64,000 nucleotides of DNA, from assembly GCA_009801085.1 (NCBI GenBank), contig VNWV01000001.1, positions 682,001 through 746,000 of the forward strand. The letters are read 5' to 3'. A program made the translations under genes and the position numbers. Below, one piece after another: positions 8,670 through 34,549 of the stretch (position 1 is its first letter; every line of letters begins with the position of its first letter). The DNA comes from Lasiodiplodia sp. COLG20. Its lineage: Eukaryota; Ascomycota; Dothideomycetes; Botryosphaeriales; Botryosphaeriaceae. The notes beneath the pieces are model-generated. The model was not told where the DNA came from, made no database searches, and saw only the letters and a list, made by a program, of their open reading frames with translations.

Positions 8670-10493
8670 TTCTCTACCGGTATACGTGTGCGTCGGAATG
8701 TCACTTCAGTCAAGGCTGTTGCAACACTTTGTTGGTGTAATCGAGACGGCGAACGAATGCAGGGTCCAGGACCAGGGCATGCCAGTGATAGGTCGTCGGC
8801 GCTGCAGGCTCACCAAGAGCCAATGAGGAGCGATGGCGAAGCTGGGAGAATGGATCCGTCACTGGGCGCACTCAGCAAGTGAGAACGGAGCGACGACAGA
8901 TGATTCTGTTGAAGGGGATGAGCTAATTGAAATAGTGTGTGCCGAGGCCCATTGCCTGAGTGCAGTAGCGCGTACCGCACACGTCGATCTGCAACCGGGT
9001 TTGCTGCAGGAACGGGCTTTCCTGGAGCACTTTGCATTTTTTTTTTGGGAGTACCAGCGAGGCATGGCTAAGCAGCACCCGTTTTTCACCCACAAAAAAA
9101 AAAAAGAAATAAAAGAAGAGCCAGTTGTAGTGGTAGCTGAAGCAGATGTCCGGACAAAGGCGTGAACTCAAATAGCATAACGATGATATGCGACTACTTA
9201 TGCGAATGGAGAACAATATCTCGTGGAACATGCCTACATCCCTACAAAGGTCGTGCAATCTATTATGGCACTCTGCACTACGTCGTCACACGAAAGGCAA
9301 AAATTTGACAGGAAAATTGAGACTGCAGACAAATCAAGAGCCGAACCTTTCTGGGTCGTGACAGCGAGCATTTATCTGGACATAAACGCATGAGAGATTC
9401 GCGAACACAGAAGCCCCAATAAGAAGTTCAACTCCTGCTCTCGTCACGACCCAGGCGAGCCGACAACGCGAGGCCTAGCCGGTAGTAGCACAAAATTCAA
9501 ACCTTAGAGATTGCATTCTACTTACGTGTATAGTTTACGTCTGGATGCTTCTACTGATGGTAAAGCTACATCTGCCTCCGGATGTTCGCTCCGGTAGCCG
9601 AGGATCAAGAAAAGCTGATCTCGCCGAAACTTTTGCCAGAATCTTGGCAAGAAATCAGTGTGACATCGTTTTTGCGGCACAGAGGGCTCAAATTTCCTGC
9701 TACCTACCGTGAGCTGGCGTAAAGGTTCACGGAGCAGGGGTGGATGGTGGAGCGGGTGTTTTCCGTGGAGGAAGCCTTCGCCGACGGGCTAACGCGATTC
9801 GCTGGGTCGTGCACTCGCACCATTTCCGCGATAAGGCATTGTTATCGCGTCACGGCTGTTGCTTGCACCTTCATGTCCATTGGCAATTGCCCACGGAGAT
9901 TGTGTCATGCCACCGATTGCGACTGTTGACGTCCAATCAGAACTACATGCTACCATATCATCGTTCGCTGCAAGCTCCAGTCCCAGGTCTCAGGACGAAG
10001 GGGCATTGCAGCCGAAAGCTAGCGCGAGGAACATGAGGGCCTTTAGGAGATGGGGTAACTAGGTATGCCCCATCGATTTTCCCTACGAAATAACATCTGT
10101 GGGTAGTTGAAGCTGTCATGCAGACGTGAATGTATGGTTTCAATTCGACGTTGAAGCCCGGTCAATCGCTTCAACTACCCAGGACATGAAAATCCGGCTG
10201 CGACACCCCATCTGTAGGTCTGGCGGAGTTAAATGCGCACTGCATGTGACGGTGGATCAACCTTTGAGGGGCGCTTAATCATCCTTTCCGTCTGAGCCCG
10301 ATCTGCTATCGCGTCAACGAATGGGAAATGATGCACAGTGCATTTGAGCAATGACTAGGCTAAAGTCCGTCCGATGGCGGCGGGCTTTGGATTTAACCCC
10401 GCCGTGGGGTCGACCGATGCCATCATACAAAAGAGTCGACGCTGCCCACAAACAAACGCCCGCCACTCTTCCAATTCCACACATCTGAACACA
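8670..10493. other. Intergenic region holding a palindromic element
   Basis: 1.8 kb between the divergent C2H2 gene and the GRE2-like reductase. Homopolymer tracts occur near 9034 (T) and 9093 (A). No protein-like frame was recognised. The palindromic element at 10088-10190 is listed separately. The last 100 bp before 10494 should contain the reductase promoter. Confidence 0.55.
10088..10190. repeat. MITE-like palindromic element, copy 1
   Basis: The left arm contains TGTGGGTAGTTGAAGC at 10099-10114 and the right arm GCTTCAACTACCCA at 10168-10181, an exact inverted match of the core. The outer left end AAATAACAT also occurs in copy 2. The centre shares the ACGTGAATGT and ATTCGACGTT motifs with the other copies. 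The right outer end has diverged. It lies about 300 bp upstream of the GRE2-like gene. Confidence 0.75.
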
Positions 10494-11626
10494 ATGACGC
10501 GCGTACTCCTTACTGGTGGCTCGGGCTTCATCGCAGGCCATGTGCTCGAGTATCTGCTGAAGCGCGGGTAAGTCACGAGCTCCCTGGCACTCCACCATGC
10601 CGTCTTCTCACTGCCGGCTTAGTCACTCCGTCGTCACGACTGTCCGTAGCCAGGAGAAGGCAGACAGGATCAAGGCAGCCCACCCTAGTTACGCCAAGGA
10701 TAAGCTCGACTTCTCAATCGTCCCGGATATCGCGCAGGAGGCCGCCTTCGACGAGGCCGTCAAGTCGGACCCACCTTTTGAGGCCGTCATCCACACCGCG
10801 AGCCCCTTCCATTTCAATGTCACCGACGTCCAGAAGCAGCTGCTTGACCCCGCCGTCATTGGCACAACTGGCATTCTCAAGTCCATCAAGAAGAGTGCGC
10901 CGACTGTCAAGAAGGTCGTCATTACCTCTTCTTTTGCTGCAATTGTGAACCCCTTCAAGGGCAACTGGCCAGAGCACACGTACTCTGAGAGTGATTGGAA
11001 CCCCCTGACGCACGAGGAGGCGCTGAAGGATCCCGCCAACGGCTACAGAGGTAAGCTTGCATTTAGCAGCAGGAGATTCAGACTGACTCTGGATTATAGC
11101 GAGCAAGACATTCGCTGAGCGTGCCGCATGGGACTTCCTTGAGAAAGAGAAGCCCAACTTCACAATTGCTACCATCAACCCGCCATTCGTCTTCGGTCCC
11201 ATCGTTCACTATCTGAACTCGCTCGACGCCCTAAACACCTCTAATCAGCGCATCGGCAACTTTATCCTTGGCAAGTTCAAGGACGAGATCCCACCGACCG
11301 GCACCTATATCTGGATTGATGTGCGCGATGTAGCCCTGGGCCATGTCAAGGCCATGGAGCTTCCTGAGGCGGACAACAAGAGGTTCTTCTTCACCGCCGG
11401 CTACTTCAGCAACAAGGAGCTGCTAGAGCTCATCAGGAAGAACTTCCCCGAATACAGGGACAAGTTGCCTGCCCCAGAGGTCACCGGCGCTGGCGTTGAC
11501 TATCCTGCCGAGGGCGTTTACAAGATTGACAACTCAAGGACGAAGGACGTCCTGGGCATTGAGTTCACACCATTCGAGAAGACCGTCGTAGACACCATCA
11601 ACTCTCTCAAGGCTGTGGGCGCATAG
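10494..11626 (+). CDS. GRE2-like NADPH-dependent aldehyde/ketone reductase (extended SDR)
   Basis: Three exons (10494-10567, 10623-11050, 11100-11626) with introns 10568-10622 and 11051-11099 give 342 residues. The first exon encodes the Rossmann nucleotide motif TGGSGFIAGHV. Exon 2 has the substrate-side HTASPF and the catalytic Ser in ITSSFAAI. The catalytic tetrad Tyr and Lys are in YRASK, which is created exactly by joining exons 2 and 3, strong support for the splice. Then come INPPFVFGP and the IDVRDVALGHV motif of the dihydroflavonol-reductase/GRE2 group. Such enzymes reduce methylglyoxal, diacetyl and other carbonyls with NADPH in the cytosol; the actual substrate here is unknown. No clustering with other metabolic genes is evident. 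Confidence 0.9.
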
Positions 11627-12520
11627 ATGATGGGGTAAACAAAGACGCGGACAAAATCAGGTAGACATAGAAGAAATACGAGCTGGTAGTCCAATCGCGA
11701 GTATCTTCGTCACTGAGATGCTAATTGTTTCCCTGCCAATTTTCCGGTAATTCCCCATCTTTTAAACTCAGCGCTAGCCTAGTTCCCTACCTATCCTTCT
11801 TGGTCTCATGTCAAAGTATCGACTGCCCAAAACGCCGCCTTGTCACGTATTGAGATATGCAAGAGGACCTATTAGTTGCCTTTTTTTCAGTCAGCCATCA
11901 GGCTCCGGCGAGCAGAACACTTTAGCAAAAAATAGGTGTGTGTAGCTGGGTCAGACTGTTGAGCTTGAATATTTTGAAATATCATGGATGACTCATAAAT
12001 GTAGTTTGAAGAAGAAGACATCATTTAAAGCGGTAGAGTTACGTCTGAGGAAGCTTTGCTTACCTGATAAGATTAGTGGCGCCTGGGCTATTCAGCTCCA
12101 TGTGAGAAGCAGCCGACAGCCCTGACTGTAACGATGTACTCCAAGTCGTCTGGTAGCCTGCCCAATCACTATGGTCACTATGGTCCCCTGGTTAGTCGCT
12201 CGCTTGCGCCGGGCTGAAGACGCCTTGTTCATGGAGGTGTGTTCGGGGACATGGGTGTGGTTTTTCGGTCTAGTGGTTGTAGAGTGTGCGTCACAGCTCC
12301 AAACGCGCAGAATTTCAAGCGGCTCTCGGTGGCCGAATTTACCCGCCCGGCAGCGCATGGGCCCGCAGAAGCGCAAGAGAGAAGCAGCCCCACCAAGCAG
12401 GACCCCCCACGACAACAAGCAGTTTCGGGCCTCAACTACCGCCTGACACGACCAACTCCCTCTAACCCACTCCTCACCACATCTTCACCCAAAGAGCCAA
12501 ATCGCTACCCCTCCATCAAA
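11627..12520. other. Intergenic region
   Basis: 894 bp between the reductase stop and the NTF2 start. A short tandem duplication (CACTATGGT twice, near 12167-12184) is the only structure noticed. Open frames around 12092-12446 overlap on both strands and look like chance. The last few hundred bases are CT-rich, consistent with the NTF2 promoter and 5' UTR. Confidence 0.55.
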
Positions 12521-13221
12521 ATGGCCGGTGAGTATCCTACATTGCGCGCCGTGTTTGCCGGCGATGCGGCGCTAACATGACTGGATTACAGACTTCCAGA
12601 ACATCGCGAGTACGTACCCGGGGATCCTACCACAAGAGCGCCTATTGTTGCGCTCGATGCGACACCAGCTTTGATCGGCGCAGTGGAACTAATGGCCGCA
12701 CAGCTCAGTTCGTCCAGTTCTACTACAAGACCTTCGATGAGAACAGGGCACAGCTTGCGTCGCTTTACGTACGTGGACACACAAGGCTATCTACACGCGC
12801 GGTTGCTGATGAGATTTACAGCGCGACCAGTCCATGTTCACCTTCGAGTCGAACTCGATCCAGGGCACCGGCGGCATTATGGAGAAGCTGACGGTAAGCA
12901 TCGGTCGCAGCATCTGTTGTGTAGCCCCGCACTAACAGCGTCTGCCGCAGAACCTTCCCTTCCAGAAGGTTGTTCACCAGGTTGCCACCCTGGACGCCCA
13001 GCCCTCCACCGAGGATGGCGGTATCCTCGTCCTTGTCACCGGCGCTCTGCTCGTAAGTTCAGCCAGCCTTCCGGTCGCGGACCCACCTACTCTGACACAT
13101 TGTGAAGGTCGACGAGGAGCAGCGCCCCATGAGCTACACCCAGGCTTTCCAGCTTCGCCCCGACGGCGCTGGCAGCTACTTCGTCTTCAACGACGTCTTC
13201 CGTCTCGTCTACGCCGCATAG
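12521..13221 (+). CDS. NTF2: Nuclear transport factor 2
   Basis: Carries Ran-GDP from the cytoplasm into the nucleus through FG nucleoporins. Six small exons were reconstructed: 12521-12527, 12592-12609, 12704-12768, 12822-12893, 12951-13052 and 13108-13221. They sum to 378 nt, giving 125 residues, exactly the yeast NTF2 length. The spliced protein begins MADFQNIATQFVQFYYKTFD, then has LASLYRDQSMFTFES, QGTGGIMEKLTNLPFQKV and the C-terminal SYTQAFQLRPDGAGSYFVFN. All introns are GT-AG. The first exon is only 7 nt and the second 18 nt, so automated gene finders may miss the start. The neighbour TVP18 follows 740 bp downstream on the same strand. Confidence 0.96.
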
Positions 13222-13958
13222 AGAGCTCAAAGAGCCCTAGACTTGGAGCATGGTAGCTAGGTTGGGTTACGAAGCAATGCGTTAAATGCGGACGTGTGCA
13301 TTTAGGAGGCTAGTCGATGACAGCAATCAGAGGAGGGACTCTTGGACATACCCACATACCAATATGGACGGCGCCACAGCTATCTCGTGAACATAGTGTA
13401 AATTGTCGTGTGCAAGGCTCCATCCGCGCTGCAGCCTGGAGCAGCGTGTGGCCGTGTCGCAGGCTGTGGAGCGTGCGGAGAGGCAGGATCAAAGACCCCT
13501 GGACCCCTGCAATTGTGACGAGTGTATTTTTGATGGAAGCACTGGCCGCGGCGCTGAAACGCATGGTGATTGCTGCGTCGCTTGGTCGCGGTTGCGTTCT
13601 GCCTGCGATCCTTGTCAGGTGGCACTGCTCGGGACGCGACTGCCGTGGCTGAGTCTGAGCTGCTGCGGCAGGGTCTCGCGCTCCCGAAACAATCCATCGA
13701 TTCGTATACACAACAACACCTTCGACATCCACGCTCCCCTTGTCTGTACGCAGTCCCCACCAGTGTACCGGCCGGTATTCAACAATCCCAAGTCCGCGAC
13801 ACGCTGGCCATTCACAGCCGCATTCCCACCCCTGCAGCAAGCGATCAACATCTCGCACGGAGCCTCAGAGATCGACAGCCAACGGCCGTTCGCAACCCAG
13901 GCATCACTCCACAGTCGTCGCGCCGCCGTCACAGTCGCAACATCGTTAGCCAGAAACC
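13222..13958. other. Intergenic region
   Basis: 737 bp between NTF2 and TVP18. Overlapping open frames on both strands (13310-13858 minus, 13403-13999 plus and others) have no family features and reflect GC-rich composition. Probably the NTF2 3' UTR and the TVP18 promoter. Confidence 0.55.
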
Positions 13959-14718
13959 ATGACTTTCAGCGAGGAGCTCAAGTCCAGGAACTTCAGTGAG
14001 TCTTTCCGCAGGACCGGCGCGGCTGAAGCGAGTGCTTTCTGACACGTTGGTCATAGGTATATACGGACAATGGTGCGTACAATCCGACTTTTCCGCGACC
14101 ATCGCCCCTCCCTTCGCCCTTCCTGCCCAGACCCGAGCTTCTCTTGCGCTGTCGTCGTAGAGGCGCCGGAACAGATACATAGGCAGCAAAAGCTCCTTGG
14201 CGGTGTGCGGGGAGCGGAGGAGCTCAACAAAGCGCATGCATAGGAGATGACCGAGGCTGACCACAAGACAGGACCGGCATACTGTGTGTGATCCTGTGCT
14301 TTGCCATGGGTATCGCCAACATCTTCAGCCGCTTCCCCATCATCATCTTCTCCATCATTTGCCTGTAAGTAACACAGCGCCGCCAAGCCCCAGTGCGCCC
14401 AGCTAATGCCAAAGCAGGGCATATGCACCGATCATCTTCTTTGTAGAAGTAGCCTTCTTGCTCAAGCTTCCCATCTGGTCTGAGGGCTTCCGCAGCTTCT
14501 TCCGCCGTCTCCAGGAGAACTGGCCGCGCATCATCATGTACCTGGTCATGAGCATTGTGCAGTGGATCAGCCTGGTTGGCGGGGCTAGCAGCCTGATTGT
14601 GCCGGCCATTTTCCTCCTGTTCGCCGGCCTCTTCTACCTGCTTGCGGCGCTCAAGCACCAGGAGTTCCAGAGCAGCAAGATCCTGGGTGGACAGGGTGTT
14701 GCTCAGATGATCATCTAA
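13959..14718 (+). CDS. TVP18: Golgi apparatus membrane protein TVP18
   Basis: A small tetraspan protein of late-Golgi vesicles. Exons 13959-13995, 14057-14072, 14272-14364 and 14418-14718 give 148 residues, the normal size. The protein starts MTFSEELKSRNFSIYGQW, then has membrane segments TGILCVILCFAMGIANIFS, FPIIIFSIICLAYAPIIFFV, IIMYLVMSIVQWISLV and SLIVPAIFLLFAGLFYLLAA. It ends with the cytosolic tail LKHQEFQSSKILGGQGVAQMII. Exon 2 is only 16 nt, and intron 2 (14073-14271, 199 nt) is long for this window. Each splice junction is GT-AG and restores a family residue. The family is linked to vesicle trafficking and is not essential in yeast. Confidence 0.94.
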
Positions 14719-15833
14719 GCGCGGAACGCTGTCACGGAGGATTGCATGGTGACTGCTGGGCCACGGGCGGGGCGTGCAGCCAATGTAATTTTGGGTTTGG
14801 ATGCTCGACGGCGCGTGTCACAGTGTTGGCACGCTCGACAAGTTTCATTGCTTTGGCGGACCCCTCCGCAGCAGGACACAGGCGTTACTGGGATAATATC
14901 CGGCAAAAGCCACAGCTGATAGGGAGGAGCCATGATACCTGCGGGAATTGTTGTCATACTTTTTTTTTGTTCTTTATCGGTAAAGGCGGAATGCAGTTCG
15001 ATGGCGTTGAGTTCGAATCACATAGTGGTGCGTGTCACGACGGGTGGCGCAAAAATGTAGGGCGCGAATGTTCGACACGCCGCACGGCGTGGGTGGAGGC
15101 GGTGACCCAGCAAGCGTCGTGGCTAGCTTGGACATGCTCTGCTGTGGTCACGAAGCTTGCTTGGCGGGTGACGACGCGAGCATTCAGGAACGGGTGCTGG
15201 CCATCACGTGGCGGGCCGGATCGCGGGGGTGGCGCTCGCAATGGTGGCATCACGATGCAGTGCAGAGCCTTCAGGGCGCAGCAAACTTGGCAGTGGGCCC
15301 AGCGAGCGTTCGCAGCGTTCTGGAAGCGTTGAATGCGGGCGTCGCGATACGCGCCTGCGAATCAGAGGCGCGCCAAATGCTGCTGCGAATTGGCAGACGC
15401 TCACCGGCGGCGCTGAGGGCGGGCGTGTTCCATGCAAAATGCCGCAGCCCGGGGCCAATGACGCTGCTGGCGCATCCTGGGCCTCGATCTGACGAGCACC
15501 CCCAGCAGCCAGCGTCACAGCAGAGTCGCGTCACTTAAAGACACGCCCGCCAACCCTGCAGCTGACTTCACTGCCTCGAATTTCCTCTGTTATCTGCTCC
15601 TGTCCTCCTATCTGCACCCATCCCGTCTTCGGTAAGTGCCCTGGCGCTTTGTCCGCTCCCTTTGGTGCCGCTAGCTCCATGCAAGCACCTTGGGCCTCAC
15701 TATTCTGCTGCCCCGGGCCACCGGCCCATGGCCTACTTATTCTCGGTTGCAAGCCACTTGCTGATCTCACTCTGTACTTCAGTATCCCTCTGCACACGTC
15801 ACTCCTCCCTCACAGCCGCGCTGCACACCCAAC
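14719..15833. other. Intergenic region
   Basis: 1.1 kb between TVP18 and AIM21. Several overlapping open frames (14742-15332, 15032-15538) are rich in A, G, R and W and do not resemble known proteins. The last 250 bp are pyrimidine-rich, typical of a fungal promoter and 5' UTR. No RNA gene seen. Confidence 0.5.
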
Positions 15834-18800
15834 ATGGCTGCCCCTACGATACCGCAGCGCCCCTCTCGCTCCCAACAGAGCCAGAACGTGCCCACAATTA
15901 CCGGCGACGTCCCCAGGATCCCCCCGCGTCCGAAGCGCAACATCGAGCGCTCTGTCTCGCCCAATAGGGACTCCTTCGCCCGCTCCCCGCTGAACGACCC
16001 CTCCTTTGTCAATGGCTCCAGCAATGCCAGCAAGAGGCTCTCCGCTTCCGACCTGCCTCCTCGGCCCCCGAGCGTCACCCTCCCCTCGATTGGCCAGGAG
16101 GGCAGCGAATACGCAAGTCTCGAGACCCCCCCGGTGGACGAGAGTGTGCCGAGGGAGACCCGTGACGCCGAGGGCCTGAAGCTGTACGCCCCCACCGCAG
16201 AAATGCCCCAGTCAACAGCCCGCTCGAGGATTGCCGCCGTCACTCGCACCGACTCCCAGCAGGCCGCTGCCGCCGGTTTCGGGAGAGCTTCTTCACAAGA
16301 CACCGAGCGCCACACGCGGAACAGCTCGTCCACCGGCCGCCGCTCCCGCCCCCAGTCTATTTACAACAACGGCGACGAGGAGCATGGAATTCCCGAGATC
16401 GGTCTCCAGGTCCCCATGTACCCCAATGCTGGCGATGTCCAGGCTCCCACGCCGTCCAACAACTCGAGTATGCCTGCCACCGGCGTTGGCTTCTTCAACA
16501 GTGGAGGCCAGAAGCACCACACCCGCACCAAGAGCGGCCGCGAAATCTTCCACGGTCCTCCCGGCAGCTACGGCCTTCACGGCCACGGCGTCAAGCCGCA
16601 GGATGATTTCGAGAGACAGTGGTATGCCAAGCATCCCGATGATGCCGCCCGTGAAGCCAAGGGCGAGTACGGCCCGGCTATTCAGCAGAACAGGAAAGAG
16701 TGGGCTCTGAGCAGTGAGGAGCTGAACAAGATTGTTCAGGATAGCGCTACGAGGGGTGTCGGAATGGGTAAGCTATTGCTAGCATGTTAGGTCGACCGCG
16801 ACCTTCGACAAACTAATCGTCCACTCAGGTGCGTCCCCCGGCGCAATTGGTACTCCTGCCGAAGAGATTGGCTACATGGCATCTGAAGAGTATGCTTCCC
16901 GCATGGCCTCGCCCCAACCGTCGTCGAAGGTTCCCAAGGAGCGCAAGGCTAGCTCGCAGACGAACATCGAATCTCCTCTCCGCCAGAGCAGCTTCCCTGA
17001 GAACGTCATGGACAGGGATTCATCTGCCATTGAGGCTGATGACGACGATGTGATCCATATCGACCCTCCCACCAAACAGCGGAGCCATATCCATGGCGGC
17101 GGCCCCGAAGCCGAGAACTTCGCTCCTGGTGGCGGAAGCAGTGATGCCGACGACGGCTTTATTACCGAGGAAGGCCGACGCACGCCAATTCTGGCCTCAG
17201 ATGAGTTGGAAAGGCACAAAACTCCTGGCGCTGAATTCATGCAGCCAGCCGTGCCACCTGAACTTGAGCGTGAGCGCAGGTTGAGTCAAGAAGCTGACAA
17301 CCACCGCCGTTCCAGCAGTCGTTCGACCAGCAGACCCACCAGTGGTATCGGTCTTTCTCGCTGGAAGAGCGAGGAGGATCGCACAAACACGCCTCTTGAC
17401 AATGTGAAGGAGTACGAGCCCCTTTTCCCTGATGAAGACGAGAAGAAGCCTGCAGACAAGCCGGCCACGGCTGCCGACAAGCTCAGGCGCCCTGATCTTG
17501 CTCGCCATCATTTCCCCAGCCAAGATGTCTGGGAGGATACTCCGAGTAGTTTGCAACTCCAGACCGAGGTCGAGACTCCTGAGAATCCTGATGAACCGCA
17601 ATCTGCTACAACCTCTCTGCAGTCTTCTCAGGTCCTTGAGAAGCCCGAAGCAGACAAGGAACGTAAGGCAGAGCCTGCGCCCAAGCAGGAAGAAGAGAAG
17701 AGCTTCCTCGCAGATCATCAGAAGCGCCCAAGCAAGTCTCACTTCAACAAGGATGTGCTCAACGATATGCCATCTCGCCCTGGCATGCAACACAGGTTCC
17801 CTAGCCAAGATATCTGGGAGGATACTCCGAGCGAGCTCCAACTCGTGACCGAAGTCCACACTCCTCAGACTGATGAGACAGAGAGCCCGGTGGAACCCAA
17901 GTCTGCAACCGAGCAGCGCCCCCAGGTTCCTGCTCGACCCCATCTTCCTGCTCGACCAGCTGGCCGTTCAAAGCTTGGTGAGAGCCAAGAGGGCTCGCCG
18001 GTCGAGAAGAAGGTTCCCGTGATTCCTGATCGTCCTAAGCCGCAGGTGCCAAGTCGTCCAGCCAAGCCCAGTCAGAAGCCTTCTGATGAGCACGTGCCCC
18101 TTGCGAAGGTTGGGTCACAGGGCAGCACTGGTAGCGAGGGTGCACCGGCCGCCGCAACAAAGCCCAAGCCTCCGGTGCCCTCTCGTCCTGGTGGTAGCAA
18201 GATTGCAGCATTGAAAGCTGGCTTTTTGAGTGACTTGAACAGCCGTCTCCAACTTGGTCCCCAAGCCCCGAAGCCCAAGGAAGAAAAGAAGGAAGAGGAA
18301 GAAGAGCCGAAGGAGAAGGCGCCTCTTGCAGATGCTCGCAAAGGCCGCGCCAGGGGACCGGCGCGCAGGAAGCCTGCCGCATCGGCGGCTGCAGCGGCTG
18401 CAGCGGCTCCTGTCGAGGTCAAGAAGGAGCAAGCGCTTTCCATCGGCACCATCCAAACCGTCTTCTCCATCTCTGATGATGGCGATCTCGATGTTCCGTC
18501 GTCGACTTCTGCTGGGACGGAGGCCGAGGCGACTGAGGAAAAGCTTCCAGCAGCCGCAGAGGCGTCTGTTGCTACCCAGGTCCCTGCTGATCCTAAGCCC
18601 GCCCCCAGCGACGATCCAGCTGAACCAGAGCTCGAACCGCATATTGTCAAGGCAAGCGAGACAGAAGCCACACAGGCCGAATCTACGCCCGCTACAACGG
18701 AGGAGAAAGAAGCCGAGTTGGAGCCCACCGAAACGAAGACCTCTGACTCGGCCGTGCAGACTGGCCAGCAAGACATCGAGATCCCGAAGGAGGAAGGCGG

Positions 18801-18933
18801 TGTGGAGAAGATTACTGCTTATCTAGGCGCCAATGCTCCTGAGGAGGGAGATGTCGTGGTGAACGATGGTGCTGAGGCTGTTGAGAAGGTAGATGAGAAA
18901 CATGAGGCTGAGAAGACTAGCACTAGCACTTGA
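15834..18933 (+). CDS. AIM21: AIM21-like actin-patch protein
   Basis: Two exons (15834-16767 and 16829-18933) around a 61-nt intron give 1012 residues. In yeast Aim21 sits at cortical actin patches and, with Tda2, binds capping protein to tune actin assembly during endocytosis. Here the N terminus is MAAPTIPQRPSRSQQ with a further PRIPPRPKR motif. A duplicated unit follows: HHFPSQDVWEDTPSSLQL near residue 536 and HRFPSQDIWEDTPSELQL near 632. Proline-rich repeats (QVPARPHLPARP, PQVPSRPAKP, PPVPSRPGG) lead into the conserved SKIAALKAGFLSDLNSRL helix near 770. The C-terminal 250 residues are acidic, repetitive and probably disordered. No membrane segment. Length and layout fit filamentous-fungal AIM21 homologues. 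The ATG at 15834 is the first in frame. Confidence 0.9.
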
Positions 18934-19658
18934 GGTGTTAAGAGGAAACGGGCTGCATAATGATAGCGAGTGTGATGAGTGGGTCAACGGAGGGCTATAG
19001 TATTCGGTAAAATTAGATCTTAACCAGTGGTTGTCTGAGAAGCTAATATGTTCCGGCGGTCAGCAAGACGTGAGAGAAGCGCTGTTCACCTCTAAACAGG
19101 GCGTTTGTTGCACTAGCAACCTTTGCTACAAGGCAGATACTCGTCAAAGGCGTTCGTTTCAACTTATCCAACATACTAGATCAAAGTCCATGGACTTCGT
19201 GAGCCTACTTTACATTGCACGAAGCTAGGCATCCGAGGCATTCATCGGACATGATTGCATGTCATATTTAGAAACAAAAGTGTCCGGACGATAGCCCCGA
19301 CTTGTTTCGACATTAAGCCAACCGACCTCATAACGCCTTCCTCCTGTTGATGTTTCTTTCCGTAGCGTGGCTGCCGATTATGGAAGCCCACCGCCGCCTG
19401 CATCTTCTTTCCTCACTACTGCTAACACCAACCCTCTTCTTCTCATGCGTTCACACAACCTCCGCTAACATCGAGCATCGATAACGCAGTAGCTTCTATC
19501 ATTTCAATTAAAGATATCCCCGTACGCCCGCAGTTCCGCTCACGAGGTGACTCTTCTACACGCTGAGCAGCAACAAAAGCATCACATTCCATCCTGGGAT
19601 TGATTCACTCCTTTGAACAGTCAGAATCCCCCTCTTCCTACTCTTTCTATCTCTCAAA
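18934..19658. other. Intergenic region
   Basis: 725 bp between AIM21 and the helicase-like gene; AT-richer in the middle. The last 250 bp are CT-rich, promoter-like. No repeat, RNA gene or convincing open frame. Confidence 0.55.
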
Positions 19659-22125: not shown

Positions 22126-22577
22126 TTGTCTGAAGGCTCTCTTTTTAAAGGAAACAAGTGTGGGTTAGGAGGTCCTGAGCGGGCTTCTCTGTCACAGCTC
22201 TTGGGTATGTCATTCTAGTATGATTCAGGAGAGAACGGGGAGAAGCTATTGATACATATTGGCTACGGCGTGCACAGCATACCACAAAGGTTTCGGCCTT
22301 TCACTGGCAATATGTCATCTTGCTTGTGTAAGCATTCAAATGCATTATGTGGGCGTGTTTTTATGTGCCATTGTTGAAGTGACTTCTGCATCCTGATGTA
22401 TGCTTTGACTGCTCATAAAGGACCGGGCACTGGGAGCAAAATCAGACATGTCTTTCACTGAGTAAGACACTGGATTGACAAGACTTTAATATCATTGAAG
22501 AGGACACGATAAAGCGGTAGTGACTGAGAGAAGACTACAAATAACGCAGTGATCAGCGGCACGATGTCCCCATCGCA
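22126..22577. other. Intergenic, convergent 3' ends
   Basis: 452 bp between the stops of the helicase-like gene and the uncharacterised gene on the other strand. AT-richer than both genes. No structure noticed. Confidence 0.55.
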
Positions 22578-23423: not shown

Positions 23424-23914
23424 GTTGATGAAATGTTGGGAGATGTGGGATTTGGTCGTGAGTGTTTTGGTGTGAGGGCTCATATTTATTCTCTGCTCCC
23501 AAGTCTTTGTCAGACTGCATGTCTTGGCCGACATGGTGTTGCGCGTCGACCTAAGGGTGTGCACAGGGGGTGAAATAACATATGTGGGTAGTTGACGTTA
23601 TCGTCTAGACGTAAATGTGAATTATTAACTCGACATCTGCGTCCGGAAGATAGCTTCAACTGCCCATGGTATGTTATTTTTGGACAGTAAAATTCCTGAG
23701 GCATAGCTACCCCATGATCGACTGTTCTTCGGCGGCAATACCCCACTGTAAGCTCAATGCTGACAAGGATGACATCCGTCGGCATCCCGCCGGCTACTGC
23801 CGGCATCCCGCGCGCTCTTAAAGCTGCTTACGCGTCTCTTTCGCCTGGACTTTCGTTCGTCCTCTTTTGATTATTATTTTCTGTGATTTGAAGACCCCAC
23901 ATCCGACCACAACC
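23424..23914. other. Divergent promoter region containing a palindromic element
   Basis: 491 bp between the starts of the uncharacterised gene (minus) and the zinc finger regulator (plus). It contains copy 2 of the palindromic element at 23573-23679. A short direct repeat, GGCATCCCG twice near 23781-23811, is also present. Confidence 0.55.
23573..23679. repeat. MITE-like palindromic element, copy 2 (most complete)
   Basis: The left end AAATAACATATGTGGGTAG and the right end CCCATGGTATGTTATTT are inverted copies. Arms of about 45-48 nt match at roughly four positions in five, leaving only a short AT-rich centre (GAATTATTAA). Inner motifs TATCGTCTAGACGT and CGTCCGGAAGATAGCTTCAAC pair with each other. 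It lies about 150 bp upstream of the start at 23423 and about 235 bp upstream of the start at 23915. Confidence 0.8.
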
Positions 23915-25421: not shown

Positions 25422-26144
25422 ATGTCGGGGTGGGGAGGGCGCTGACGTGAGCCGGACGGTAGACGTAGCACGAGAGCAATAGAGTCTAACATCGAACGCC
25501 TACGCGTGAATGGTTCCCTTTTGGTCGACAGCCAGGCAGCATGCATAGTCAGCTGAAGCAGCTTGGCGTGGCGATAAAGCGTTGGGAATGGTCCACGCAG
25601 CGGCGCTCGATGTTAACCCTTTCTGGCAATGTTCGCGCCTAGCGCACACACACAGCAGGGATATCCTCCGTCCAAGCTCCCCACGGCTGTTGCGCATACA
25701 AAAGCATCAGGTCCATCAGCATTTCATCATCTCGACTCTTCTGGACTTTGGCTTCTGCCTTCCAGAATGCTTCTTTGCTTGTCCAAGCTGACCCAACCCT
25801 TCATTTGCTCGCCTCTTCGACGCCTAGACCGTTCAACACAACGCGAATATCCGAGAGCCACGTCTTGGCCCAAGAGTTCCGTCTTGCTACTACGCGTCGT
25901 CTTGTACACCGCTTCGCGGATGTGTCTCAACCGTTACAGCGCCGATGCCTTTTACTTCGTCGAACGGCCCGAATAATGCCACCGATAACGTTAGGGGCGG
26001 GAGGATACCTTGGCGATGGGCGTCATGATCGAACGGTCCTCGGGCTTTGCGCAGGCCCTCATGTGAAGAACGAGGGGTGTTCTTTCATGAACGAAGGGGA
26101 CCGGCAATACTGGTTATAGAAAAGGGGTTTCGTGATATTCATTA
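25422..26144. other. Intergenic, convergent 3' ends
   Basis: 723 bp between the stops of two regulator genes. Overlapping open frames at 25582-26119 carry no recognisable features. Nothing else seen. Confidence 0.5.
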
Positions 26145-27708
26145 TCACAACGAACCAGAGCTGCCGACAAGGCTTAACTGCGATTGGGTCGAGGAAATGC
26201 TCTGCAGATAAGTCAGGCCGTCCCTTAAAAACGTGCCTGCCGCGTACCCTTTGGCTATGATGGAGTTGTACAGGGCCACGATGCGCTCTCTCACGCCAAA
26301 GTCATTGACCTCAAGTGAAAGACTCAGCAGCATCGGGAGCAGCGAGAAAACCTCGAAGTCGACGACAGCGATGCGCTTCTCAATGGCGTCCAGGCGCGTT
26401 GGCCAAGGCAAACCTGTATCCGCAGAATCGACCAGCGGTCGGACGGCGTCAGGGTCAAAGCTGCTCCATGCTTCATCGGCATACAGCGAGGCTATGCTGA
26501 TGGCGCACGCGTGGTACCAAGCCGGTGCGATACTGCTCCAGTACTTGGGGTCCGTCGTTGCTTGGGCGTTTTCGCTCATGGCAATGGCGAGGCGCTGCAG
26601 CTCTTCGAGGGCAACAAGACCTTGTTGCACCAACTGCTCACCGCACGGGTAACAATGCAGCGTGTCACCTCCGGCCGGATCCTGCCCACAGTGCGGACAA
26701 GCCTCTGCGAAGTTGACGACTCGACTCAACCAACGCGGCACTCTAGGAATGGTCAATAAAAAGGGCTGCGGATGGGGCGACATGGAACATACCGTGAGTG
26801 CAACGAAGAAAAAAGGGAGAGAAACTTCACGACGTGGTAGAAGACAAGCTGCTCGGCCGACGAGGTTTCGGGAGGCGGTGGAGTCATGGGGCATGAGGCA
26901 GGCTCTTCCCTGGTGTACAGGGCTCGGCCGGTATCCAAGTAATTGTAGAGGACGAGCAGCCAGTTGTTCTCAGGACAACTGTTCGCAACACATTTGGCTA
27001 TGATGCGTGCGGAGACGGTGTTCATGACTGTGAAGAAGCCAAGACCACTGGACTCGTACAAGAACTAGGACTCGATTATTATCGGCGTGAACGGACGGGG
27101 TTCCTCGTTTCTTACCTCGAATATAGCCAGAAGTAGACTGAATAACAGGTGGCTGAAGGGATCATCAGCATCGATGTGCAGCACGCTGTGTAAGCTGCGG
27201 CGGGTGTTTGCGAAGGTGTGGAAGTAGTTAGCGGCAGGGTTTTGGCGCTTTGTTGACACCAGAGCGCCGATTGCGGCAGCAACAGCCTTCACAGGACCAG
27301 AGCGGCATAGATACGGGCGGAGAGCGGTAGGACTGAACTGCAAGCTGATGGGCGAGTGGGGTTCGGGGCCTACGAAGGCGAAGAAGGCTTCAAGTGAGGC
27401 CGTCTCGTCAAGCGAAGGATGCGGCGTAGTGAGTTCGGGCAGGTAGTGGAGGAAGGTAGGCTGCTGGCGCTGCGACGACACAACGGCCTCGGTGCACTGC
27501 ACGCGGCGCACGCGGCAGGTGGAACATGGACGTTGGCCATCGCACTGCAGGCAGAGTCATCAGCTAGAGGATGGGGAAAGGGGGCAAGGGAGCGGGACGG
27601 CCCGCGGTGGCTGAGGACCTTTGTGCGAGCGCGGCGGCAGTTCTTACAGCGGTGGCTCTGCAGCCTTTTATCGCGGGGGCCGAGTGCCCTTGCCCTGTGT
27701 GGTGGCAT
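26145..27708 (-). CDS. Zn2Cys6 transcription factor
   Basis: Four exons (27708-27619, 27544-27116, 27064-26793, 26742-26145) give 462 residues. The Zn2Cys6 cluster is assembled across intron 1: CKNCRRARTK from exon 1 joins CDGQRPCSTCRVRRVQC from exon 2, giving perfect C-x2-C-x6-C-x5-C-x2-C-x6-C spacing. The donor of that intron (GTCCTC) is unusual, but the zinc cluster leaves little doubt. The rest has no strong match to the common fungal transcription factor domain. Helical stretches such as PFSHLLFSLLLAIFE and ALYNSIIAKGYAAGTFLRDG suggest a regulatory region. In exon 4 a second cysteine motif, CPHCGQDPAGGDTLHCYPCG (C-x2-C-x11-C-x2-C), could bind another zinc. The gene is divergent from the D-lactate dehydrogenase gene across 940 bp, so regulation of that gene is possible but unproven. 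Confidence 0.85.
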
Positions 27709-28648
27709 CGTGTGGTAATAGGCGGCGCGACTTTCCGATGCGAGGGTGGTTGTGGCAATTCTCGGTCGGCCAACGTGACCCGATTCTCTGAGCACGGGAA
27801 ACAAGAGGGAGCGGATTGATCCGGGCCAGCAACGGATCAATCCGGTAAGCAACAAGTGGAACGACCCGACCTTGGAGGCTATTTCGGCCAGCTCAGTCAC
27901 TTCGGGCTATTCGGCTTTTAGGACGGCGTCGAATGCGCACGCATGTTGGAAATGTCGCTGCAGCCCCGGCTGAGGCTTCGAGAGCCAGAGAGAGGCTTCG
28001 AGATGGCGGGCGTGAGCCAGTGTTGGTGTGTGGTAGCCGAGTTGTGAACTAGTACCCACTAGTTTGCCTATTCGCAAGACCCGTCCAATCAGAGCCGGCC
28101 TAATTCTCTGACTGATCGACTAAGTACTTGGAGACACGATTACTCAACGACCAATGACAGCCTGTCAATCCGACTATACAGTATATAGAGGGCTAGCGCG
28201 AAGATCCAGACGAGGGTGTGCAATCGTTACATTTACACGGTAGCGTCGACCAATGAAACTTCTCGCCAGCCTTCAACTGGAATACTCCTCTGTACTGCCT
28301 TCACTACCCTTGCCTGTTTGGTACCGACCTACCTACCTCATGGAGCGATCCATCTGTGGACCTAACGACCGTTATCATCGCCTTGCATTGGTGATCGGAG
28401 GTGATCAAGGTCTAAGATTGCACGACGCTGGATGGTGGTGAATGAGCAGTCATGTGTTCCCTGCTTCGAGTGGACGCGCCTTCCCCGCGCGAGCGAATGA
28501 CGTAAGCGAGTGCCGACGCCTTCTGTGCGACTGATTGACCAACTACACAGCTCACCTCAGCTATTTCTCTTGACTTGACCTCAGCTGACAATGCCGACAT
28601 AAAACCAAACCGTCAGATCAATTTTCACTCGTCTCCCAGATTAACATC
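27709..28648. other. Divergent promoter region between regulator and DLD
   Basis: 940 bp between two divergent starts. A direct repeat, GAGGCTTCGAGA, occurs twice near 27971-28003, and a TATA-like run (CAGTATATAGAG) lies near 28179-28190. No gene recognised. Confidence 0.5.
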
Positions 28649-30385
28649 ATGTTCCGGCTCACGAGGTCGCTAAGGCGGCCTTTGAGCCAAAGCTTACCCT
28701 CAACTTTAAAGTCGCATACGCGGATAAGGTCAATCCATGCCAAGCCAGCCGTTCGACACGCCTGGACAGCTGGTGGCATTTTCTTGCTCATGTCAATAAC
28801 GACCTTCCTCGGATACAAAGCAGGCCTCAAAGACGCTACCCCACTTTCCCCCACTGTACAGCCAAAGTATGCATCCAAGAAAGAAATGGAAACGGCCATC
28901 CAAGAGCTGAGGACCCTTCTCGGACGAGATGCCATTAGTGTTGACCCAGACGATCTACATCGCCACGGATACTCCGATTGGTCCACCACCAACGTCGATA
29001 CGCTTCCAACAGCTGTCGTCTATCCCACTTCGACCCTCGAGGTTTCTCAGATTGCGAAAATCTGTGCTAAATACAAAATTCCCATCATCCCCTACTCTGG
29101 TGGCACTTCGGTCGAGGGCCAGTTCACCGCCCCCGTCGGCGGCTTCAGCATCGACTTTGCCAACATGGACAAGATTCTCGCCATCAACGACGACGACCTC
29201 GATGTAGTAGTCCAGCCCTCGGTACCGTGGATCGAACTTAACGAGCACCTCAAGCCCGCCGGACTTTTCTTCCCTGTCGATCCAGGTCCGGGTGCCCGCA
29301 TCGGCGGCATGGTCAGCACTAGCTGCTCTGGCACCAACGCTGTGCGCTATGGAACCATGAAGGACTGGGTCGTCAACCTTACCGTCGTTCTCGCCGACGG
29401 CCGTGTTATCAAGACGCGCCGTCGGCCCCGCAAGACGGCTGCCGGCTACAACCTAACTGGCCTGTTTGTGGGCGCCGAAGGCACCCTCGGCATCGTCACC
29501 GAGATCACGCTGCGGCTGACAGTGCTCCCGCAGGAGACGAGCGTCGCTGTCGTTACCTTCCCTACCATTCGTGACGCGGCAGCCGCGGCATCGAACGTCA
29601 TGCGTGCTGGCGTGCCTGTCGCAGCTATGGAGATGATGGACGATGTGCAGATGGGCGTTATAAACAAGGTCGGATCTACGAAGCGTAAGTGGAAAGAGGT
29701 GCCGACCGTGTTCTTCAAGTTCTCGGGTACCAAGGCAGGCGTGAGGGACAATATAGAGACGGTCAAAGCTATCACCAAGTCGAATATGGGCGGCGATTTT
29801 CAGTTTGCTGCAAACCAGGCCGAGCAGACAGAGCTGTGGAGCGCGAGGAAGGAAGCCCTGTGGAGCATGTTGGCGCTGAAAGGAGAGGATGAGGAGCTGT
29901 GGAGCACCGATGTGGCAGTGCCGTTGAGTCGGTTGGCGGAAATAATGGGTGAGTTTGTCGCGTGTTGGGTGGGTTTGAGAGTTGAGGACTGATGTACCAT
30001 GTTGCAGAGGAGTCAAAGAAGGACATTAGTGGACTTGGTATGTTTGCATCCATGCTGGGGCACGTTGGCGACGGGAATTTCCACTCGGCCATCTTTTACA
30101 ATAAAAAGGACCCGGAGCAGGTGGAGAAGGTCAAGCGGGTCGTGTGCAAGATGGTCGACAGGGCTTTGGAGATGGAAGGCACGTGTACAGGCGAGGTCAG
30201 TCATGCGAGTTTTCTTCAATCGTATTCCTCTGGAAGCTGACTCTGCGTAGCACTCGGTCGGGTTGAGCAAGAAGGCATCGTTGGTGAAGGAACTTGGCCC
30301 GGAGACGATTGGCGTCATGAGGGAGCTGAAGCGGGCTCTGGACCCTCATTCGCTCATGAACCCCGGCAAGATTTTTGACCTTTGA
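28649..30385 (+). CDS. DLD1: Mitochondrial D-lactate dehydrogenase (cytochrome)
   Basis: Oxidises D-lactate to pyruvate and passes electrons to cytochrome c at the inner mitochondrial membrane. Exons 28649-29948, 30008-30195 and 30251-30385 give 540 residues. The N terminus MFRLTRSLRRPLSQSL is an Arg-rich targeting sequence; a membrane segment follows (GGIFLLMSITTFLGYKAGL). The FAD-binding PCMH domain shows IPIIPYSGGTSVEGQ, DPGPGARIGGMVSTSCSG and GLFVGAEGTLGIVTEITLRL. The C-terminal FAD-oxidase domain has GHVGDGNFHSAIF and TGEHSVGLSKK, completed only after splicing. The usual TGEHGVGLGK is altered to HSVGLSKK, a mild change next to a metal-ligand His. The end is HSLMNPGKIFDL. A palindromic element starts about 10 bp after the stop, so it is likely transcribed in the 3' UTR. 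Confidence 0.95.
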
Positions 30386-30395
30386 AGTAAAACCA

Positions 30396-30476
30396 CGACA
30401 TATGTGGGTAGTGGAAGCTATCGTCCGGATGTGAATTTGACATTTTCGTCCGGACGATGGCTTCAACAACCCATGA
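30396..30476. repeat. MITE-like palindromic element, copy 3
   Basis: The left arm ATGTGGGTAGTGGAAGCTAT, then CGTCCGGATGTGAAT, pairs with the right arm CGTCCGGACGATGGCTTCAA, then CAACCCAT. About 81 bp, nearly a perfect hairpin with a very short centre (TTGACATTT). It lies between the convergent DLD and MFS genes. Confidence 0.8.
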
Positions 30477-30594
30477 CTTGAGCGAATATCAATTCACCTT
30501 ACCCATCGGCCCCAATACCTCTCTGCAACTACTTCATTGGGCATGGTCTGAAAAGAAGTTCTTTCATTTCGTCCTCACCAATTGTCTAATACGT

Positions 30595-32225
30595 TCACAG
30601 ACTGTATCTGAACTCAAGGTTTTCTTTATCCGTCAGATCCAAAAATTCGACATTTTCCCGGTGGCTGACAGCCAAACGATCCCGCCTTCTATTTTCCCAG
30701 ACATAGTAAAACCGCAGGATGATGACTACGATAATTGAAAACACATCAGCGACAATGATTGCAATCTTGGCCGGCATGTACTCGGGTTTGTCGCCGTCAC
30801 GGAAGGTCAGAGGCCCGATAATGTTTCCGAGACAGAAACTGATCAACAGCACGGCATTCATGGTGACCTTCTTGGTATGGCCGGCGATGTTGGCTGATAC
30901 ATAGGCGTACATGAGCGGCAAGCCGGCCACAATGCCGTTCATGATGTAAATACCGATCAGCCTACCGACCTTGTTATCGGCAGGCAGAAAGGCAATCTGC
31001 GAGAGCGAAGGTCAGTGCCATGGAATTCAGCAGACACTACGGAATCCGAACTCACCAAACATCCACCCAATACACCAGTTATCTGCGTTACGATGGCCGG
31101 CGGGCTCCTTTGGTTGAAGCGGTTTGCGGTATATGTGGCCAATAAAATTGAAACGATGATGACGGCACCAGCGGGGATGCTCAACAGAGCGGTCGTCTTG
31201 CTATCATAGCCGAAGCCCTTGATGATGGTGGCCTGGAAGCTGCTGGTGGCGGCATTTGGGATATTGCTTGCGACAGTGGCTAGGGCAAGAAGCCAGGTCT
31301 GCGGATCAGTAAAGCACTCGCGCGCTTGGGCCGGCTTGAAGCGCACATTCTCGATGCCCGTCTGGTTGGCGCGCAGCCGCTCGACCGCCCACAGCTTTTC
31401 GGCGTGCGTCAGGCGCGCGCAGGTCATGGGATTGTCGGGCAGCAGCAGCACGACGAGCACACCAACCGCCACCGTGACCAGCCCAACGACCAGGAACATG
31501 ATCTGCCAGCTGTTGAAAGCCGACGACGAGTAGTGCTGGAAGCCGAAGGAGACCAGGGAGCCGATGACGGTGCCCACGCCGGTGCCCAGGTACCACAGCC
31601 CGACCCGCCACGGCTGCTCGTCGCGCTTCTTGTACCACATGCCCGTCACCAGGATCAGTGCCGGCGCCACGGCGCTCTCGAAGACGCCGAGCAGCACGCG
31701 CGTGGTCACCAGTGCGCCGTACGTCTTGCACGCCGCCGTCGCCGCCACCGCCACGCCCCACAGCGTGACCATGGCGCCCAGGTACTTGGCCGTCGGCAGC
31801 CGCTGCATGGCGTAGCCGTGCGGGAACTCGAATGCTAGGTACGAGGCATAGAAGATCCAGGCCAGCGTCGAAAACTGGTCCGTGTTGATGGCCGCGTCCT
31901 CGTAGAGGCCCATGACGGCGGCATAGTTGACTGAGGTCTGGTATTAGCGTTGATGAATCCCATATAGAAACTGGTGAGTCGTACTCAACGTCTTGTCCAG
32001 GTACTGCAGGCAGTAGCAGCACCACATGAGCGGAATGATCATCCAATCGATCTTGCGCACCAGGGCTTTCTCGTCAACGACGTCAGAGAGTTCGCCGGCA
32101 TTCGTGGCCTCGGCGGCGAGGAACTTGAGTGCCTCGTCGCCATCTCCTTTGGCGACGGCGGCTTTGACCTTGTCGTCATCTTGCACGGAATGCGCTTCGA
32201 CATCTTGTTTGGAGTCTGAGACCAT
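30595..32225 (-). CDS. MFS transporter, allantoate/nicotinate-type (DHA/ACS family)
   Basis: Exons 32225-31985, 31930-31056 and 30996-30595 give 505 residues. After a hydrophilic, acidic N terminus of about 55 residues comes KIDWMIIPLMWCCYCLQYLDKTLINYAAVMG, the first membrane segment and the conserved loop start of the Dal5/TNA1-like anion:cation symporters. TRVLLGVFESAVAPALIL and WYLGTGVGTVIGSLVSF follow, then a central cytosolic loop (PDNPMTCARLTHAEK...), and six more membrane segments ending EYMPAKIAIIVADVFSIIVV and a charged tail. About twelve segments can be counted. This family takes up organic anions such as allantoate, nicotinate, pantothenate or small carboxylates at the plasma membrane; the substrate here cannot be told. 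It is convergent with DLD1, so they share no promoter. Confidence 0.9.
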
Positions 32226-32912
32226 TGTAGCCCGGATCCAAGCATGGAATAGAAGAAAGAGTATCAAGCGGATGCGACAAGAGCAATGGTGCGTCAAGAC
32301 CTCTAATATGATCACTGATGTTATTTTGAACCTCAATTGTCCCGCTTGAACCCCAGTCTTTTCTCCCCACTTATGTCTACGGATGTGGGTATTTGGGTGA
32401 TATCTTATCAGAAGCTCACCCATTTCGTCATGGATGCTTGTCTTATCGCATGAGCGCGGGGCAACCATTGAACAGCCGAAGTGCGCATATACAAAAGCTT
32501 CACAATGGTTGACAGAAATCCTGAGCCGTCTGTGCCATATGAAAGTTACACTCTTCATTTATGGGCAAATGAGGCAAATCCCAGAACGCTAGAACAAATG
32601 GGTAAATTTAAGTTTCTTTACCAAAATCGATTACCCATGATATGATCAAAAACAAAAGAATTCACGCCAACCTGCGGTTGCGGAGCAATGTAGATCTCCA
32701 CTACGTTATCAGGATATCCTGGGGCTGGGGAAAGATGCTGGGGTGGAGACTCGAAACACCTTTTCGCTTATCTAACCCGGACGAGAAGGTGCTTATTAGT
32801 CCATGTTTGGTCGGCGGTGGCAAACTCATGGCCGAACAAGTGTTTTATGCATACAACATTGCCACTACAAGTGCATGATACTTCAAACATTCTTTCTGGA
32901 CAAAGCAATATT
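32226..32912. other. AT-rich intergenic region
   Basis: 687 bp between the MFS start and the F-box protein stop. A small inverted repeat, ATGGGTAA at 32598-32605 and TTACCCAT at 32631-32638, flanks a nested GGTAAA/TTTACC pair. It is too short to assign to the palindromic family. No gene recognised. Confidence 0.5.
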
Positions 32913-34202
32913 CTATGGGAAATACACCGCAACCCCGTTTGACTGAAGTACCTCGACTAAATGTTGAGTGAGCTCGAGCTCGAGTGGAAGGCGGTTCATC
33001 GATGAGCCATGAGAACCTATGGAGATGTGAACCTCACTTAGCTGGGGACAACAGAAATGTTTGTGCTGGGCTAGTTCAGCAATGTACGCAACCAACTGTT
33101 TCGTTTCGGAGCTTGGCTCCCTGCTGTCCCAGTCGCCCCACCAGAAATCTCGGTCCAACTTCAGGACGAGGACCTGAATGCTGGGAGGCAAGCGTGTGTG
33201 GAGTGGCGGAGCGTGGTCGTAGGAATCCGGTGTTTGAGGGTCATCGCTATCAGAAAATTCCATCAACATGGCCAGTGGGATACCCAGGCGGGACAGCTTG
33301 GTGAACGGTCGGAAGCCATCGTCCTGGAGCGGTTCGCCTAGCCACCCACCGCCATGATCAAAAATATCGACGTTCAAGTCTTGGAGGCAGTGCTCTACGG
33401 GCGACAGTGCTTTCCGGATGTTGAGGAAACTGATGGAGCCAGAGTCAAAAGCATATCGATTCAACCCATCTGCCAAGTCCATCCCAAAATCAAGAACCTG
33501 AAGGTCTTTGGGCCAACTTAGAAGGTGTGCGATCTCTGGGCTTACAGGCCCGCATTGGACGAATCTCAGGCTCGTAACATTGGACGTCCCGGGCTGGCGG
33601 CAATGCTCGGGTACGGTGCAGTTCAGACGAAGCATTTGAAGCAGCCCCACCTGCCTGAGGGACGGAATCTGAAACAGCCTCAGCAACTTCGCAAAGTCCG
33701 GGTCATTGTAAAGGCAGTCGGTAATAGGTATATCCAAAGAATTCAGGCGGTCCACACCGAATGGAACGAGCGAGTCCAGGCGTGGAATTGACATGTGGAG
33801 GTTTTTGAGTACCGCCGACTCGGCCAGCAAGTTCGCCGTCTCCTTCACGAGCTCGTTGAGCTGGAGCTCTTCAACTGTTTCGAAGCGCTCCGGCTCCTTC
33901 CAGCAGCAAGGAGTGCCGTTGGTAGTCCAGCGCAGTCGCACGTTTTGGACTGCCGACCGCCATCCCGGCCAGACGGAGAGAGATTGCCGAAACATTCCTA
34001 ACTTGTAAATTCGTGTCCCAGAGCGCCTCAAATTGTGCCTGCTGCCGTGGGCAAAGTAGAGCGAGCGGTAAAGGTATTTGCGGGCCTCTTCATGGCAGCC
34101 ATGGGAAACGAGTGCGAGACTTTTCAGAGTCTCCGGTGGACAGTATCGCATGATATTTGCCCACAGCTCCACGGGAAATACTGGCGCGCGATCGCGAGTC
34201 AT
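32913..34202 (-). CDS. F-box-like domain protein
   Basis: A single exon of 429 residues starting at the ATG at 34202; the longer open frame upstream begins with TTG, not ATG. Near the N terminus, APVFPVELWANIMRYCPPET followed by LKSLALVSHGCHEEARKYLYRSL is the F-box pattern that binds Skp1 in SCF ubiquitin ligases. The remainder has leucine-rich-repeat-like segments, for example ETVEELQLNELVKETANLL, LKNLHMSIPRLDSL and LQVLDFGMDLADGL, expected to bind a substrate. Fungal genomes carry large, fast-evolving families of this type and the substrate cannot be predicted. No nuclear or membrane targeting is visible. Upstream lies a palindromic element, about 165 bp from the start. Confidence 0.8.
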   Translation of the reverse strand: MTRDRAPVFPVELWANIMRYCPPETLKSLALVSHGCHEEARKYLYRSLYFAHGSRHNLRRSGTRIYKLGMFRQSLSVWPGWRSAVQNVRLRWTTNGTPCCWKEPERFETVEELQLNELVKETANLLAESAVLKNLHMSIPRLDSLVPFGVDRLNSLDIPITDCLYNDPDFAKLLRLFQIPSLRQVGLLQMLRLNCTVPEHCRQPGTSNVTSLRFVQCGPVSPEIAHLLSWPKDLQVLDFGMDLADGLNRYAFDSGSISFLNIRKALSPVEHCLQDLNVDIFDHGGGWLGEPLQDDGFRPFTKLSRLGIPLAMLMEFSDSDDPQTPDSYDHAPPLHTRLPPSIQVLVLKLDRDFWWGDWDSREPSSETKQLVAYIAELAQHKHFCCPQLSEVHISIGSHGSSMNRLPLELELTQHLVEVLQSNGVAVYFP

Positions 34203-34549
34203 GTTTACAGTTGGAGAGCGGAAAGTATGAAAAGAGAGTTCAAGTGGACGTTCGGGATTCAGAGACAAGAGAGCCGAAGGCTAGCGCGAAGAACTGAGAC
34301 AGGGGATTGACTAAGCTCACCCAAAATACATGATTTTTCACAATACTCGCGAGAAATTATTCAACTTGTGTGGGAACTTGAAGCTACCATTCGGACGTAT
34401 GTATAATTGTTAATTCGACATTTATAGCTTCAACTGCCCATGACATGAGAGAAAACAGAGTCATGCTAGCCTTCAGCTGCACGCTAAGGCCGAATGCAGA
34501 AAAGGCTGCCTATCACTGTTGATGAATATGAAAACTGACCAATCGTTGC
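34203..34549. other. Intergenic region containing a palindromic element
   Basis: 347 bp between the F-box start and the RidA stop, both on the minus strand. It holds copy 4 of the palindromic element at 34366-34446 and otherwise nothing recognisable. Confidence 0.55.
34366..34446. repeat. MITE-like palindromic element, copy 4
   Basis: The left part TGTGTGGGAACTTGAAGCTA, then CCATTCGGACGT, is followed by TTAATTCGACATTTATAGCTT and CAACTGCCCATGACATGAGA. The left arm has decayed more than in copies 2 and 3, but the right arm keeps GCTTCAACTGCCCATGACAT. About 81 bp. Confidence 0.7.

Follow-up and report, generated by a model that had tools for sequence, protein, structure and literature searches.

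What kind of sequence are the four nearly palindromic segments that lie between open reading frames in a 64,000-nucleotide stretch of the Lasiodiplodia sp. COLG20 genome (positions 682001-746000 of contig VNWV01000001.1, hereafter the window)? We compared them with one another and searched the whole genome (43.5 Mb, 88 contigs) for their relatives. The four palindromes are very probably decayed members of a high-copy, non-coding MITE family of the Tc1/mariner type. As a MITE family it is ordinary; the behaviour of its central hairpin is the part deserving study.

The copies in the window

All four palindromes described in the sequence-only reading are present and mutually homologous. When 33 full-length copies, with no window copy among them, were made into a profile, it matched copies 1, 4, 2 and 3 with E values of 1e-33, 3e-28, 2e-26 and 2e-26 respectively, and a repeat finder put the left halves of the four palindromes in one group. 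That each copy could fold is also borne out, as single-strand DNA folds of all four are stronger than those of shuffled sequence, with z values of -4.4, -6.1, -7.6 and -2.6 for copies 1-4; among 200 dinucleotide shuffles of each copy, 0, 0, 0 and 3 respectively folded at least equally well. The inner CGTCCGGACG arms had been described as shared and pairing. By eye, copy 3 shows this pairing clearly and copy 2 in part, but it is decayed in copy 1, and one side is lost in copy 4. The palindrome is real but forms only the core of the repeat, beyond which the arms of the element extend in copies 1, 2 and 4.

Copy 1 occupies positions ~9994..10216 on the plus strand (profile match 10000-10191, ends placed by eye) with its long arm on the left and its short arm on the right. 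Its palindromic core of 82 bp lies at 10100..10181 (+), the right end CTGTA is found at 10212-10216 and the left TA is decayed. Copy 2 lies on the minus strand at ~23562..23750 (profile match 23584-23750, left end placed by eye) with a core of 82 bp at 23585..23666 (-); its long arm is on the right, where TA stands at 23749-23750, and its left arm is shortened. Most of the long arm is missing from copy 3, located at 30389..30525 (+; profile match 30389-30515, envelope to 30525, right end uncertain), and its core of 69 bp at 30405..30473 (+) has a shortened loop. The match of copy 3 starts, by eye, three bases after the stop codon (30383-30385) of a D-lactate-dehydrogenase-like gene. Copy 4 at ~34260..34490 (+; profile match 34272-34480, envelope 34260-34490) is the most decayed, with a core of 70 bp at 34371..34440 (+), and stands upstream of an ORF on the minus strand that has its first ATG at 34202. 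The profile also located a relic at 32507..32692 (+, E 3e-5) with a still readable short arm and a weak, possible relic core at 19206..19317 (-, E 0.004), both of them absent from the earlier reading.

The placement of the copies between genes, judged from ORFs rather than from annotation, is correct for ORFs of at least 200 aa, save that copies 2 and 4 overlap such ORFs marginally, by a few bases. Differing ages of the copies had also been suggested, which fits the number of mismatches to the consensus of the arms (54 bases compared): 4 in copy 3, 6 in copy 2, 9 in copy 1 and 16 in copy 4, the median being 3 among 111 copies catalogued from the genome, a sample biased to well-kept ones. ORFs of the window include the fungal families Aim21 and Fungal_trans, and the D-lactate-dehydrogenase-like ORF has its named best matches in Diplodia and Botryosphaeria. 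At 37979-62965, the window carries a grouping like that of a siderophore-type gene cluster: giant ORFs of 3327 and 2304 aa, both on the minus strand, together with a SidA-like ornithine monooxygenase and an ABC transporter. The SidA-like ORF has its best match in Lasiodiplodia theobromae, with 98% identity across 78% of the query, and the next match is at 88% in Neofusicoccum ribis.

Family size, anatomy and target site

A 24-base half-palindrome, allowed up to 3 mismatches, matched the genome 774 times, and its reversed control pattern 0 times. Since each palindrome contains two halves, at least ~387 palindromes are present; the further copies for which the earlier reading had proposed to search thus number in the hundreds. 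Two versions of the outer end gave 316 and 121 matches (controls 0), and the inner motif TCGTCCGGACGT occurs exactly 386 times (control 12). The catalogue comprises 111 distinct palindromes in which each arm has at most 6 mismatches, the arm-to-arm length is 41-109 and none lies within 30 bases of a locus end. It is a biased sample, its loci having been chosen because they matched window copy 2 best, fitted a search pattern exactly or nearly so, or surrounded a transposase match.

The complete element mostly measures ~225-240 bp and consists of CAG-initial outer inverted repeats, unequal arms and an 83-bp palindrome. The core is exactly 83 bp long in 98 of the 111 catalogued palindromes. It is flanked by a long arm of ~100 bp (including TA) and a short arm of ~55 bp, both ending in CTG-TA, and the terminal inverted repeats (CAG..CTG) exist in several versions which are also mixed within one element. 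Both outer ends were recognised by pattern in 58 of the 111 copies, one in 33 and none in 20, while the profile found outer arms on both sides in 67, on one side in 33 and on neither in 11. Without the duplication, two-ended copies range from 180 to 319 bp, with 36/58 at 224-241 bp, and an element of this size is too short to code for a transposase. The outer-end versions CAGTCCCCTCTCG, CAGAGGGGTGCTG and CAGGGGGGTATCG are seen among two-ended copies, often two different ones per element, and the versions T1 and T2 partly resemble inverted forms of each other. RIP-type decay left no strong sign in the 33 aligned full copies, where 82% of cells at consensus CpG retain it and 8% of those at CpA read TpA.

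The target-site duplications that the earlier reading had named as a check are evident at the ends. TA stands on both sides of 48/58 two-ended copies, counted with end patterns that themselves include TA; the count was repeated for this reason with patterns stopping before TA, which gave TA/TA in 39/49 two-ended copies and TA after 108/133 single ends. In the window, TA makes up 2.9% of dinucleotides. A perfect TA pair is missing in 10/58 copies (10/49 by the TA-free patterns). Any longer duplication would require G before the left TA, seen in 9/48, or C after the right TA, seen in 18/48. Identity among the 33 aligned copies reaches 98-99% in the best pairs, whose flanks differ, and is 80% in the median pair.

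The clearest single case is the copy at L046, a younger copy sitting at a TA inside the long arm of an older family copy. When its flanks are joined with a single TA, they align across the junction to model positions 1-199 with 112 bits. Among the 48 copies put to this joined-flank comparison, an alignment across the junction was obtained at L046, L050 and L022, and it is clean only at L046. The target at L050 is a 20-base tandem array, and leaving one TA keeps the 20-base period. This array (L050:1640-1750), which the MITE interrupts, carries a core-like motif CGTCCGGAYGATTG. Further copies, TA duplications and one copy nested in another uphold the MITE half of the earlier "MITE or foldback" reading. 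The family would have spread by cut-and-paste transposition at TA, with a transposase acting in trans.

The foldback half of that reading, in which long inverted repeats of the FB/Galileo type are the mobile unit, seems hardly credible. The consensus does fold nearly end to end (with RNA parameters), but outside the core and the outer ends its arms are unequal and for the most part do not mirror each other; the inverted repeats do not span the element, and beyond the core the outer ends alone pair again. The duplication is moreover TA, whereas FB/Galileo elements make longer target duplications. It is also improbable, to a lesser degree, that the 83-bp core represents an independent mobile element inserted into a different MITE. 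Such an origin would agree with the 11/111 cores without recognisable outer arms and with tandem cores 136-142 bp apart. However, a core arm stands beside the exact outer end in 20/20 fetched sites (from 29 exact sites listed) and no core-free MITE was seen there, and we therefore take the core as part of the mobile unit. The 11 solo cores have, by eye, no shared duplication, and 5 of the 11 lie in arrays. A 30-base left flank is common to the cores at L051 and L067 (26/30), yet when 90 bases of the L051 flank were searched against the genome, only L051 itself matched. An independent core transposon was rejected. Tandem cores at this spacing occur in L003, which has five cores, and in L019, L041, L064, L103 and L097 (where the spacing is 98 bp). 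Linkers of L019, L041, L064 and L097 look alike, and the two-core form may therefore have spread as such.

Loop orientation, arm co-variation and symmetry of the core

The outer arms define a direction against which the 31-bp loop of the core can be read. The comparison covered 47 copies that combine an 83-bp core with clearly unequal arms. By overall identity, 25 of them carry the loop in one orientation and 8 in the opposite one, and 14 are unclear. Scored at six diagnostic sites, 25 copies are forward and 11 reversed, the other 11 being unscored. The reversed copies L072, L097:2023 and L044 were left out of the count because their arms are aberrant (in L044 both are long-arm-like), which leaves 25 forward and 8 reversed among 33 scored copies. 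A tree of the outer arms alone needs at least 6 changes of orientation (25 vs 8 copies; 25 vs 9 and 7 changes with L044 counted), and 145 of 1000 label shuffles need no more than 6. On this weak arm tree, orientation hardly follows descent, a result which fits frequent flips but also the poor resolution of a weak short-arm tree. The most direct case is the pair L008 and L045, whose arms are identical at 137/146 positions and whose loops agree at 31/31 positions after inverting one of them and at 20/31 directly. In one further copy (L088:3858-3940) the outer loop is reversed and the three central bases are forward, a pattern that may reflect another inversion nested within the first.

The two arms of the core also change together. 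Across 98 copies, 30 two-sided compensatory changes were counted in 27 pairs, compared to 12 +/- 3 in shuffles (maximum 23, n=500), although the relatedness of copies can inflate such counts. Pairs with a two-sided change amount to 15/36 vs 9.4 +/- 1.6 in shuffles, a value reached by 1/500, and the covariation score lies above all but 2/500 shuffles. The share of pairing cells is not higher than in shuffles (90.7% vs 90.6%). After sliding the partners by +2, 15 pairs likewise carry a two-sided change, but the cells (31 vs 48) and types (41 vs 52) are fewer.

Mirror symmetry extends well beyond the core in 2/111 copies. At L061, 104 bases on each side of the core are symmetric without a mismatch, reaching ~50 bases past the TA of the element, and at L003 the symmetry extends 42 bases beyond the core with 2 mismatches by score. 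In the remaining 109/111 cores it stops within ~30 bases outside the core. The extended palindromes at L061 and L003 could be assembly errors. The symmetric MITE copy at L061:2126-2416, including the ~50 bases of flank on each side, lies beside a decayed DDE_3 region.

It appears that the central hairpin has repeatedly flipped and copied itself. Template switching at the hairpin would explain loop inversion, arm matching and extended symmetry alike, and we lean towards it as the cause of this behaviour. During DNA synthesis, short switches of template at the hairpin would copy one arm onto the other and so keep the palindrome, the same switching would invert the loop between the arms, and copying would occasionally run on into neighbouring DNA. 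With more reserve, we suggest that the constant length of the core may be kept by this self-templated copying (loop flips, arm-to-arm copying and flank overrun) without selection for a product, and that the same process perhaps drives duplication to dimers and arrays. If so, the hundreds of copies would document template switching across a whole fungal genome.

Recombination between the two 27-base arms, by cruciform resolution or homologous recombination, is a rather doubtful source of loop inversion and arm matching. An exact loop inversion with intact arms, as between L008 and L045, would be the product of inverted-repeat recombination as well, but recombination between the arms alone leaves the symmetry 104 and 42 bases beyond the core unexplained, and arms of 27 bases are short for homologous recombination. 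The copy at L088 hints, by three bases, at inversion of only a part of the loop, which would count against it. A far less probable reading makes the palindrome a conserved binding site for a protein or a conserved regulatory RNA, with the repeats as functional elements near genes. The stable hairpin, the position between ORFs with one copy directly behind a stop codon, and the compensatory changes, which the earlier reading had named as a sign of functional RNA, speak for it. Such changes do exist in the palindrome, but they are accompanied by inverted loops and copied flanks, neither of which is expected from selection on an RNA. Hundreds of genome matches, differing flanks around copies that end at TA, the nested insertion at L046, the inverted loops and the decay of the window copies also argue against it. 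With 0 matches in an Rfam search over positions 9900-34600 of the window, the copy number and the TA ends, functional RNA was set aside as the main account.

Transposase search and comparable systems

The TA duplication and the CAG ends are taken by us to point to Tc1/mariner, from which we infer the transposase type. A genome-wide search for transposase domains located 5 DDE_1 and 3 DDE_3 regions and 0 Transposase_1; the Transposase_1 search was silent in control genomes too, so that its silence does not show absence. In the fetched stretches of ~2.1-3.5 kb around the 8 DDE_1/DDE_3 regions, no ends matching the MITE were found. Ends are readable only in the DDE_1 regions L057 and L058, where they differ from those of the MITE. 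The decayed DDE_3 region at L061 adjoins the MITE copy and is not enclosed by MITE sequence.

A large class of the genome's short repeats is accounted for by this family, which would also provide markers for strain comparison. Since the core stands at many unrelated places with its orientation fixed by the outer arms, the rates and boundaries of hairpin-templated mutation could be measured within one genome, and the core copies would serve as a natural record of mutation at hairpin DNA.

No such family is described in the titles and abstract beginnings, among the matches listed, of the MITE and transposon literature on Botryosphaeriaceae, Botryosphaeria, Neofusicoccum and Lasiodiplodia. The nearest comparison is with mimp (miniature impala) of Fusarium oxysporum. 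According to the sections consulted, mimps are Tc1/mariner MITEs of 200-220 bp with terminal inverted repeats of ~27 bp, 103 of which are tabled for the Fol4287 genome (PMC3599309). The present MITE resembles them, as far as those sections describe them, in its uniform short length, its non-coding nature, its terminal inverted repeats, its relation to Tc1/mariner and its subfamilies arising from bursts (PMC3599309). Unlike mimps, compared here by description and not by the letters of their TIRs, it has an 83-bp palindromic core, unequal arms and several hundred copies, and the transposase regions surveyed yielded no matching ends. The pogo-like MITE mFot5 of Fusarium is, in the same partial account, likewise short, non-autonomous and thought to depend on a transposase in trans, but its ends are like those of Fot5, whereas the readable DDE_1 ends here do not match the MITE (PMC3599309).

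For the hairpin, the closest parallel is template switching in RNA genes. In the portion of that study consulted, loop inversion and multiple compensatory changes are explained by one template switch, and loop inversion alone is enriched whereas loop inversion combined with compensatory change is not (PMC8794818). These are, on that portion, the same kinds of change as in the MITE core; they were found there in orthologous RNA genes, whereas here they are seen in copies of a mobile element, for which a function as RNA is not needed (PMC8794818).
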